In this document: piece by piece, positions 27,118-30,042 of the stretch
Layout: each line of letters begins with the position of its first letter
How positions within the stretch are numbered: the stretch's first letter is position 1
The notes under the pieces: generated by a model
The model's input: only the letters and a program-made list of their open reading frames with translations
Databases searched by the model: none
Told to the model about the DNA's origin: nothing
Position numbers and translations under genes: made by a program
Assembly: GCA_903920455.1 (NCBI GenBank)
Contig: CAIXLY010000012.1
Coordinates: forward strand, 1-35,013
Direction of reading: 5' to 3'
Source: an uncultured bacterium
Lineage (GTDB): Bacteria > Bacteroidota > Bacteroidia > Chitinophagales > Chitinophagaceae
Length of the DNA: 35,013 nucleotides

Positions 27118-28107
27118 CTAAATCAATCCCTTCCCTACAAGATACTCTGCAATCTGCACAGCATTGGTAGCAGCACCTTTTCGCAAATTATCGCTCACAA
27201 TCCACATGTTCAATGTCTTTGGCTGCGTTTCATCTCTACGAAGGCGGCCAACAAATACTTCATCCTTTTCATGAGCGTCCATTGGCATTGGGTATTGTTG
27301 ATTAGGTAAATCATCAACAACTATAACACCAGGTGCAGCAGCAAGTATACTCTTGACCTCATTCAAATCATATTCCTCTTCAAACTCAATATTTACGCTC
27401 TCACTATGGCCACCCATCACAGGGATGCGAACCGTAGTAGCTGTTACACGAATAGAATCATCACGCATGATCTTTGTCGTTTCTTTCACCATTTTCATCT
27501 CCTCTTTGGTGTATCCATTATCCAAAAACACATCGATTTGTGGAATAACATTCAGGTCGATTGGATACTTATAAGCCATCTCACCTTGAATGCCTTTACG
27601 TTCATTCATCAGTTGATTGACGGCTTTAACTCCGGTACCGGTAACACTCTGGTAGGTGCTTACAACAACACGCTTGATCTTATAACGCAAGTGCAACGGA
27701 TTAAGCGCAACAACCATCTGAATGGTTGAGCAGTTTGGATTGGCAATAATTTTATCCTCTGCGGTGAGTGCATCGGCATTGATTTCAGGAACCACAAGTT
27801 TCTTTGTTGGATCCATTCTCCATGCTGATGAATTATCAATCACTGTGATTCCCGCCGCAGCAAATTCAGGCGCCCATTCTTGAGAAGTACTGCCCCCTGC
27901 TGAAAACAAGGCTACCGCAGGTTTCATATTAATGGCATCGCGCATGCCAACCACCTTATACTGTTTCCCCTTAAAACTAACTTCTTTACCAACAGACCTC
28001 TCGGAGGCAACTGGAATAAGTTCAGTGACAGGAAAATTTCTCTCTTCTAAGATCTGTAACATTTTGGTGCCGACCAGACCGGTTGCTCCAACGACTGCAA
28101 CTTTCAT
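27118..28107 (-). CDS. asd: Aspartate-semialdehyde dehydrogenase
   Basis: A 329-aa enzyme of normal length that reduces aspartyl phosphate to aspartate semialdehyde with NADPH, the branch step to lysine/diaminopimelate, threonine and methionine. Motifs are MKVAVVGATGLVGTKML (nucleotide-binding loop), ALFSAGGSTSQEWAP, VIDNSSAWRMD, NPNCSTIQM with catalytic Cys126, VSTYQSVTGTG and RIPVMGGHSESVNIEF. It is preceded by a promoter, a lysine-rich leader ORF and an intrinsic terminator arranged as an attenuator. It converges on ligA. Confidence 0.96.
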   Translation of the reverse strand: MKVAVVGATGLVGTKMLQILEERNFPVTELIPVASERSVGKEVSFKGKQYKVVGMRDAINMKPAVALFSAGGSTSQEWAPEFAAAGITVIDNSSAWRMDPTKKLVVPEINADALTAEDKIIANPNCSTIQMVVALNPLHLRYKIKRVVVSTYQSVTGTGVKAVNQLMNERKGIQGEMAYKYPIDLNVIPQIDVFLDNGYTKEEMKMVKETTKIMRDDSIRVTATTVRIPVMGGHSESVNIEFEEEYDLNEVKSILAAAPGVIVVDDLPNQQYPMPMDAHEKDEVFVGRLRRDETQPKTLNMWIVSDNLRKGAATNAVQIAEYLVGKGLI

Positions 28108-28137
28108 ATTTACGTTTTTTCCCTTGCGGGTTTGGTT

Positions 28138-28166
28138 AAAAAAAAGCCTCCCAAAAGTGGAAGGCT
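28138..28166 (-). terminator. Intrinsic terminator in the asd leader (attenuator)
   Basis: On the minus strand AGCCTTCC (28166-28159) pairs with GGGAGGCT (28152-28145), 8 bp with one G-U pair and a 6-nt loop. It is followed by a run of T's (28145-28138), only about 30 nt before the asd ATG at 28107. Because it lies after the promoter and before the gene, it would stop asd transcription unless melted or prevented. Confidence 0.85.
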
Positions 28167-28194
28167 GTTACATATTTGACACACATATATGGAA

Positions 28195-28251
28195 CTAACC
28201 TTCCTTGTGGGAATGTTTGCTGCTCTTTTTTATGTGTTTTAACTTGATCAT
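28195..28251 (-). CDS. Lysine-rich leader peptide of the asd attenuator
   Basis: An 18-codon ORF, MIKLKHIKKSSKHSHKEG then TAG, starts about 10 nt downstream of a strong promoter match and ends about 30 nt before the leader terminator. Six of 18 codons are Lys (positions 3, 5, 8, 9, 12, 16) and three are His. Its last codons contain GGAAGGTT (28204-28197), complementary over 8 nt to the 5' arm of the terminator. A ribosome slowed at the Lys codons would leave this segment free to form an antiterminator, while one reaching the stop would cover it. This is the classic layout of amino-acid attenuation. I recognise no named family for the peptide, and A-rich sequence alone would favour some Lys codons. 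Confidence 0.65.
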   Translation of the reverse strand: MIKLKHIKKSSKHSHKEG

Positions 28252-28261
28252 GTTGTGGGTA

Positions 28262-28293
28262 CAAATCTAATACTGAAAGAAATTTCCTCCAAA
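28262..28293 (-). promoter_or_regulatory. Promoter of the asd leader transcript
   Basis: On the minus strand TTTG (28293-28290), 20 nt, TAGATTTG (28269-28262) matches both boxes of the Bacteroidota consensus with standard spacing. Transcription would start a few bases before the leader-peptide ATG at 28251. Confidence 0.75.
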
Positions 28294-28344: not shown

Positions 28345-30042
28345 ATGATCAAATACCTTTTTTGGATAATCCCAAGTGTGATTGCCCAATTTGCCGAAGG
28401 CCAAACTGCCCGATATTCAGTGGTCATCAATGAAATATTGGCTGACCCATCTCCAATCGTTGGACTCCCTAACACCGAGTTCATTGAGCTCAAAAATATT
28501 TCCAATAGGCCCATTCAACTGGCAAAATGGCGAATAGACAACGGAAATACATCGGCTGTGGTTAATACATCCTACCTGCTGCAGCCAGATAGCCTGGTTA
28601 TTCTTTGTACAAAAACACAGACAGCTGCCTTTAATGCGCCGAAGAAAACAATCGGACTAAGCTCCTTCCCTACTTTGGGAAATGAGGGCGGGATAATCAC
28701 ACTAAAAGATCCAACAGGTAAAACAATACATGCTGTTGAGCATAATCAATCATTGTTTGACAGCCCTCTAAAGTCGGAGGGAGGATGGACGCTGGAGATG
28801 ATTGATCCCATGAAAGCCTGCGACCCTGAAAATTGGAAAGCCAGCATAAACAATCTAGGAGGAACTCCGGGAAATGAAAACAGTATCTACAAGCAAAATC
28901 AACCGACTGAGAAAATCAATGCTCTCCAATGTACCGCAATCAACCCCAATTCCTTATTGCTGCAATTGAATAAAGGGGCTGATAGTGTATCACTATCAAG
29001 CATTCAGCAATACAGCTTATTAGCTACCAACATACATATTACATCCGCTAACGCATTAGCCCCATTGTTTAAAGAAGTATCCATTCAACTTTCACTTCCC
29101 TTAGAATCAAATAAAATATATCAACTTGATGTGAAAGATATCGGCCACTGCAATCAAGCAGTAGTGGATAGCATGAAAATAAAAACTGGACTTATTAAGC
29201 AGCCTGAAAAAGAGGACCTTATACTCAATGAAATATTATTTAATCCCGAAACAGGAGGAGCCGACTTTGTTGAAATTTACAACAAGAGCAATTCAATTAT
29301 CGATGCAAAAGATGTGTTTCTCACTGCAAAGAATTTAAATGGAGCTCCCTCGAATACAGCATACCAAGCAAGCAAGGACCACTTAAATATTTTCCCAGAC
29401 GAATATATTGTGCTCACAACAGATACTAGCTATGTAAGGCGAATATGGCCGATAAAATCGGCGCAGCTGATTCAGATGAATACAATGCCTTCGATGCCAG
29501 ACGATAAGGGCAATATTGTAATCCTAGACAAACAAGGCAGAATCCTCGATGAGATGACCTACACAGAAAGTATGCATTTCCCGTTACTGACAAATCATGC
29601 GGGTGTTTCCCTAGAACGAATAAATACATTCAATTCCTCATCTAATCCCAACAACTGGCATTCCGCATCTTCAACGAATAATTATGCAACCCCCACTAGA
29701 AAAAATTCACAACATGTTTCGATTGAAAACACAGATCATGAAATAACCTTGTCCCCAGAAATGATAAGTCCAAATAATGATGGGATTGATGACCTATTGA
29801 ATATAGCATACAGATTCCAGCACCAAGGAACCCTCATCACAATTGCGGTGTATGACTATAATGGACGATTAATTACGACAATTGCAAACAACCAATTGTG
29901 TGGGACAAGTGGGTCTATCACATGGAATGGTCTTGATAGAAAAAATCAAAAGCCGCCCTCAGGAATATACATTATATATGCCGAGACTTTAAATCTTGCC
30001 GGGAAAATCAGAAGAGTAAAAAAGATAATAGCAATTAAATAG
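28345..30042 (+). CDS. Secreted lamin-tail-domain protein with FlgD-like C-terminal domain
   Basis: A 565-aa exported protein. An N-terminal signal peptide (MIKYLFWIIPSVIAQFAEGQ) precedes a first lamin-tail domain at about residues 26-150 (VVINEILADPSPIVGLPNTE, FIELKNISNRPIQL). A middle beta region follows, then a second lamin-tail domain from about 292 (LILNEILFNPETGGADFVEI). The C-terminus, ISPNNDGIDDLLNIAYRF to YDYNGRLITTI and WNGLDRKNQKPPSGIYII, is the FlgD/gliding-associated Ig-like fold found at the ends of Bacteroidota secreted proteins. It may be a type IX secretion cargo, though no strict sorting motif was confirmed. The ligand is unknown; related proteins are sometimes linked to nucleases or adhesion. 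Confidence 0.82.
   Translation: MIKYLFWIIPSVIAQFAEGQTARYSVVINEILADPSPIVGLPNTEFIELKNISNRPIQLAKWRIDNGNTSAVVNTSYLLQPDSLVILCTKTQTAAFNAPKKTIGLSSFPTLGNEGGIITLKDPTGKTIHAVEHNQSLFDSPLKSEGGWTLEMIDPMKACDPENWKASINNLGGTPGNENSIYKQNQPTEKINALQCTAINPNSLLLQLNKGADSVSLSSIQQYSLLATNIHITSANALAPLFKEVSIQLSLPLESNKIYQLDVKDIGHCNQAVVDSMKIKTGLIKQPEKEDLILNEILFNPETGGADFVEIYNKSNSIIDAKDVFLTAKNLNGAPSNTAYQASKDHLNIFPDEYIVLTTDTSYVRRIWPIKSAQLIQMNTMPSMPDDKGNIVILDKQGRILDEMTYTESMHFPLLTNHAGVSLERINTFNSSSNPNNWHSASSTNNYATPTRKNSQHVSIENTDHEITLSPEMISPNNDGIDDLLNIAYRFQHQGTLITIAVYDYNGRLITTIANNQLCGTSGSITWNGLDRKNQKPPSGIYIIYAETLNLAGKIRRVKKIIAIK

Follow-up and report, generated by a model that had tools for sequence, protein, structure and literature searches.

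Lysine genes are textbook riboswitch targets, and the lysine riboswitch (L-box, RF00168) binds lysine directly, without a coding sequence. In other phyla it controls lysine genes (PMC1262725). In the ribosome-mediated attenuators of enteric bacteria (trp, his, thr, leu, ilv and pheA), an ORF with cognate codons is combined with an early hairpin, an antiterminator and an intrinsic terminator, and the position of the ribosome decides the outcome; the word lysine is absent from the main text of the paper that sets out these systems (PMC1183508). Leader-peptide systems, at first assigned to Proteobacteria and Actinobacteria, were later also described for Firmicutes (PMC2965389). An account of Flavobacterium psychrophilum sees "strong clues" that leader-peptide attenuators precede amino-acid operons and names structured 5' elements for hisG and pheA; its main text nowhere mentions lysine, asd or dapA (PMC9723704). 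Finally, the small ORF SEP5 of Sinorhizobium meliloti holds three Lys and six Thr codons and has been proposed as a leader peptide (PMC10117765).

Here we describe the DNA upstream of asd in the window, the whole stretch of 35,013 nucleotides that was analysed, and propose that it is very probably a ribosome-mediated transcription attenuator sensing charged lysyl-tRNA. The original prediction, made from the letters of the window, had placed the asd ATG at 28107 and, ahead of it, a two-box promoter, an ORF of 18 codons, six of them for Lys, and a terminator ending in a T tract. All of these were confirmed by coordinate on the minus strand. Its set of hairpins was incomplete: a third helix, A:C (28237-28231 with 28187-28181), had been missed. 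The features are as follows.

28293-28289, minus strand: -33 promoter element TTTGG, predicted by sequence reading
28269-28262, minus strand: -7 promoter element TAGATTTG, predicted, Bacteroidota type
28251-28195, minus strand: leader ORF MIKLKHIKKSSKHSHKEG, 18 codons
28237-28231, minus strand: segment A, ACACATA, within the Lys codons; pairs with C (early hairpin, "1:2" type)
28204-28197, minus strand: segment B, GGAAGGTT, 5' strand of the antiterminator
28187-28181, minus strand: segment C, TATGTGT, 3' of the leader stop codon; pairs with A
28166-28158, minus strand: segment D, AGCCTTCCA, 3' strand of the antiterminator and 5' arm of the terminator
28153-28138, minus strand: segment E (TGGGAGGCT) and T tract, 3' arm and tail of the terminator
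28166-28138, minus strand: predicted intrinsic terminator AGCCTTCCACTTTTGGGAGGCT with T tract
28107-27118, minus strand: asd, aspartate-semialdehyde dehydrogenase, 329 aa, putative regulated gene (NCBIfam NF011456)

The promoter boxes stand 24 nt apart, start to start, and we take them to be of the Bacteroidota type (consensus TTTG / TAnnTTTG); a sigma-70 scan called no promoter at the leader. The neighbouring ORF upstream of the leader (28345-30042) is divergent. Lys codons 3, 5, 8, 9 and 12 of the leader ORF lie upstream of the antiterminator strand and codon 16 overlaps it, and the total of six in-frame Lys codons compares with 3.2 in dinucleotide shuffles (P ~0.01, 200 shuffles). As had been claimed for the end of the ORF and the terminator 5' arm, GGAAGGTT (28204-28197) pairs with AGCCTTCC (28166-28159) over 8 nt with one G-U. 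Antiterminator and terminator are mutually exclusive, D being common to B:D and D:E. In the window alone, 28105-28262 folds with z = -3.54, equalled by none of 200 shuffles. The leader stop is separated from asd by 87 nt in all, with the terminator between, and the asd product scores 451.8 bits against NCBIfam NF011456 (cut-off 223), which bears out the identity first assigned to it.

Overall, the locus holds the features of an attenuator: repeated Lys codons, an intrinsic terminator, an exclusive antiterminator, an early hairpin over the codons and fitting spacing. Unlike the enteric systems, it has a Bacteroidota promoter, an apparently near-leaderless ORF and no Rfam leader family at gathering score. 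The F. psychrophilum candidates come from the same phylum and another Bacteroidota family; unlike the analysis here, the relevant passages of that account give no regulatory codons, strands or covariation (PMC9723704). SEP5 resembles the asd leader as a Lys-bearing ORF before a gene given as aspartate dehydrogenase, and trpL of the same organism is leaderless; it differs in being dominated by Thr, with conservation confined to Sinorhizobium, in another phylum, and presented in the relevant passages without an antiterminator (PMC10117765). No lysine-specific leader-peptide attenuator was found in the literature searched, with most subscription papers and all preprints outside it (PMC7366714, PMC9413887, PMC6386406, PMC4046918). 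The lysine-specific form in Bacteroidota thus appears new, and the original remark that no named description exists fits this literature, leader-peptide attenuation as such having been suggested in another Bacteroidota family by the F. psychrophilum account (PMC9723704).

In the sequence of events that we infer, transcription would start just 5' of the leader ATG and a ribosome would trail RNA polymerase along the Lys-rich ORF. Under lysine shortage, it would slow on the Lys codons, covering A and leaving B free; free B would then pair with D, the D:E terminator would be blocked and asd would be transcribed. When lysine is plentiful, a ribosome at the stop codon would cover B, D would pair with E and transcription would end before asd. 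A:C would form when no ribosome occupies the Lys codons, and probably acts as an early pause or anti-antiterminator hairpin. Lysine codons are common. In one model of attenuation, sensitivity rises with the rarity of the regulatory codon (PMC1183508).

We collected 110 asd loci, 80 from named contigs and 30 from 60 related genomes (55 of which gave a match). Alignment A1 comprises the 52 leaders among them that were picked for having a terminator and a leader. The 58 loci outside A1 are 54 of the named ones together with L088 (the same as L001), L099, L100 and L105. The 54 are mostly, to judge by their names, from other families and have no visible leader, including Chitinophaga sp. CF118 (L018); in two, L030 and L052, the upstream sequence is too short to judge. 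Of 37 genomes in the window's genus, 34 yielded an asd gene, and 32 of these 34 genes have a match to R1, a model of the asd leader, directly upstream by coordinates (weakest E 4.3e-5). The attenuator is absent from the remaining two, L099 and L100 (genomes G015 and G001), where the asd ATG follows directly on like promoter boxes, as though the leader and its terminator had been cut out. The hisG leaders of these two genomes are still intact (L229 and L236).

Beyond the genus, a draw of 396 genomes from the order gave R1 matches at E <= 1e-6 at 93 places in 88 genomes, all in the window's family among the matches listed, and at least 20 genomes of that family were without a match at E <= 0.01. 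A draw of 395 genomes from the class gave 15 genomes with a match at E <= 1e-6, six in the window's family and nine in two further families, one of which has a member, L002, in the set from which R1 was built. All nine further-family loci precede asd; the seven examined closely carry leaders such as MKMILKNKKHGKKRFHSGKVN, with L269 lacking a Lys excess. Weak R1 matches at L180, L182, L185, L186 and L274-L276 proved on inspection to be terminators or unrelated sequence; the counts include neither the other weak matches (E 1e-2 to 1e-5) nor loci L277-L279. One further match, L184 (G016:C122:7057-7148), is a copy of an asd leader truncated at a contig end; it resembles L082 of the same genome and is probably an assembly duplicate.

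The promoter layout recurs across A1. By a loose pattern, the 24-nt box spacing is found in 37 of 52 leaders, and 50 have a -7 box no more than 60 nt before the leader ATG. The leader ATG stands only 6-10 nt 3' of the -7 box in 41 of 52 leaders (28251 and 28262 in the window), a distance that makes a leaderless or near-leaderless transcript the probable template for the leader peptide. Lys occupies four aligned positions in 47/52, 48/52, 44/52 and 46/51 leaders, counted by column with no amino acid required; both AAA and AAG are used, the third and fourth positions belong to none of the counted helices, and in the window's leader Ser replaces one of the four. Every leader has at least three Lys codons (mean 4.7). 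Lys codons number 246 in frame versus 89 and 109 out of frame, frame 0 being highest in 50 of 52 leaders, an excess somewhat inflated by the choice of ORF partly by Lys count. An anchor pattern that itself requires Lys matches 42 of the 52 leaders, with misreadings in two (L001 and L084); the aligned counts and the codon-to-B spacing were therefore used instead.

All three helices are supported by compensatory changes. In A1, D:E is paired in 94.2% of cells with 50 double-changed cells versus 16.0 in shuffles, B:D in 92.3% with 18 versus 3.7, and A:C, which joins the Lys codons to the segment after the stop, in 83.0% with 22 versus 7.2; none of 500 shuffles, which ignore the relatedness of the leaders, reached these counts for any helix, and slid partners score below the true ones for all three. 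Two of the five covariation measures are less extreme: pairs changed on both sides were reached by 73 (A:C), 14 (B:D) and 7 (D:E) of 500 shuffles, and further pair types by 36, 16 and 0, respectively. In single lineages (L013, L166), D has changed together with both of its partners, B and E. The test set beforehand, that relatives should share the Lys codons, the GGAAGG/CCTTCC pairing and the terminator with compensatory changes, thus came out positive in all three parts.

Energies likewise favour A:C. Segment A pairs with the C of its own leader at -8.6 kcal/mol versus -6.8 (sd 0.26) for swapped partners (p < 1e-4) and -3.3 for shuffled C over the 52 leaders. In 39 further leaders, the values are -11.1 and -8.5 (sd 0.35; p < 1e-4); these were mostly found with R1, so they lean to its structure and are not fully independent (one duplicate was dropped, two lie near A1 rows, B was mispicked in L150, and L269 is without a Lys excess). 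A:C is weak in some members, at -2.1 in L104 and -2.5 in L009. A possible inner helix, C:C', by which the antiterminator would be lengthened, has a mean z of -0.79, with 39 of 52 leaders below zero and a swap-test p of 0.063. A:C and B:D may cross as one pseudoknot. Short B:D matches also turn up in leaderless loci (e.g., L029, L041 and L063).

Spacing between codons and helices is constrained. From the start of the last Lys codon to B, leaving out codons nearer than 10 nt, the distance is 11-20 nt with a mode of 14 (21/52); in the window, the first base of Lys codon 12 lies 14 nt ahead of the start of B. The stop codon lies at -6 to -2 relative to the start of B in 14 of 52 leaders and at +7 to +12 in 38. 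The ribosome was assumed to cover -17 to +12 relative to the A site, an extent that comes from toeprint data. In all 52 leaders, a ribosome so modelled leaves B free while on the last Lys codon and covers it once at the stop, in keeping with the early claim that a finished ORF would mask the antiterminator strand. For transcripts ending at D, the mean probability of B:D is 1.00 with the ribosome on the last Lys codon and 0.00 with it at the stop; the spacing dictates this outcome and is itself what carries the information. The claim that a stall at Lys codons 8-9 would free B also holds, with the amendment that codon 12 is the last productive one: codon 16 overlaps B, and a ribosome stalled there would cover it.

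For full-length leaders without a ribosome the prediction is mixed: the terminator has a mean probability of 0.91 over the 52; in the window's leader, B:D has 0.998 and the terminator 0.001. With the ribosome on the last Lys codon, the full-length terminator still averages 0.77 (median 0.99; 52 leaders). In the model, the terminator is therefore favoured at full length in most leaders even with a ribosome on Lys, and the switch would have to be kinetic, with the order of synthesis mattering.

The same layout stands before other biosynthetic genes. In other genera, similar Lys leaders stand before dapA, the gene of the committing step towards diaminopimelate and lysine (5 of the 39 further leaders, e.g., MQLIKKHTKRVKKHSVYREG), the identity of DapA being confirmed for one locus, L168. 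Inspection by eye showed no leader before dapA in the window's genus, the window's genome included, and no such leader at the lysC found in that genome.

For hisG, we gathered 32 upstream regions, 24 found by gene and eight by R1. A leader with a terminator is present in 30, with three to five His codons each, and L228 and L240 gave no terminator. The 30 leaders hold 132 His and 20 Lys codons, the ORFs having been picked by His count, and the last His codon lies 14-18 nt from B in 27 of them (B was mispicked in L217). A:C is supported more weakly here, at -11.1 for own versus -10.1 for swapped partners (p 0.006). The window's own genome carries MFLTIHNHHHKFPPIR before hisG (L237, G000:C106), with a weak A:C of -1.5. 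Before trpE, a short Trp-bearing ORF ahead of a GC-rich terminator was seen by eye in all five regions inspected, out of eight loci, with three Trp codons in L290 (MAMINNNWWWHTNS) and only one in the other four, among them MKLNQTNNGWHIIPFQG in the window's own genome (L294, G000:C79). For leuA-like genes, six of ten loci were inspected and showed no such leader. The loci concerned are:

L217-L227, L229-L239; L172, L174-L176, L178, L179, L181, L183: His-rich hisG leaders with antiterminator and terminator
L290-L292, L294, L295: Trp-bearing ORFs before trpE, identified by eye

Codon identity in these leaders tracks the pathway of the gene downstream. His codons before hisG and Trp codons before trpE (the latter by eye) support sensing of the cognate amino acid, and the Lys codon counts together with the occurrence before dapA indicate lysine rather than threonine. 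It is unlikely that the signal is something other than lysyl-tRNA alone, whether a joint Lys/Thr or Lys/His sensor or stalling caused by the basic nascent peptide itself. The conserved leader motif does hold His at one position (43/52) and Thr at the next (39/52), and asd feeds threonine and methionine as well by the established pathway; however, both positions belong to segment A and are constrained there by the RNA helix, Thr is missing from six of 52 leaders including the window's and His from three, and Lys is never below three and is kept at two positions outside the helices (44/52 and 46/51). Arrest by basic peptides, for its part, does not predict hisG leaders of the same layout in which His so outnumbers Lys.

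A lysine-binding riboswitch or another RNA-only sensor, with the ORF there by chance, is very improbable. It would account for a strong conserved RNA structure 5' of a lysine-pathway gene, but not for the in-frame excess of Lys or for codons that change with the pathway (hisG, trpE). No Rfam family, T-box and RF00168 included, reaches its gathering score in the window. The best sub-threshold match, rejected at 24.6 bits versus 55, is the leader-peptide family Phe_leader. The lysine riboswitch, RF00168, was found in none of the 60 relatives at E <= 0.01 under stricter search filters, while four of 14 control genomes were positive. We give as little weight to a plain terminator beside a short ORF without regulation, or to a leader that enhances reinitiation. 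Short ORFs near starts are indeed common and may aid reinitiation (PMC4833913), but here the terminator and 87 nt in all separate the leader stop from asd, B co-varies with D though the terminator needs only D and E, and Lys codon, B and stop keep to a limited range of distances.

The comparison lends strong support to the lysine-sensing peptide attenuator originally suggested for a Bacteroidota genome. If so, a phylum other than the riboswitch users appears to read lysine supply by the ribosome itself. The placing of Lys, His and, more thinly, Trp codons on one layout amounts to a natural codon-exchange series from which the logic of attenuation can be read in sequence, and the leader family predicts regulators for several pathways within one genome. 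More tentatively, and at somewhat less than even odds in our judgement, Bacteroidota may possess a modular attenuator chassis, copies of which have had their codons exchanged to serve lysine (asd, dapA), histidine (hisG) and perhaps tryptophan (trpE). Its parts would be the Bacteroidota promoter, the near-leaderless ORF, A:C over the codons, B:D and D:E, with the last regulatory codon mostly 13-18 nt from B. R1, although a model of the asd leader, also matches some hisG leaders (E down to 2.9e-6), which is weak support for common descent. Were the chassis real, exchanging a few codons would re-address the sensor, and lysine would be a new specificity for attenuation.

Short ORFs of another kind occur before thrA (aspartokinase-type) in L271 (G000:C13, the window's genome), L243, L260 and L272. 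They are rich in Thr and Ile and end in TTR, TTTR or TTTTR plus the stop, followed by GGGTTG; no clear intrinsic terminator was seen in these four upstream regions, and the start codon in L271 is ambiguous. Finally, a small hairpin, CCC-GCAA-GGG, lies at 28121-28130 in the window, between the terminator and the asd ATG and possibly near the asd ribosome entry site, and similar forms are present in several members of the genus.
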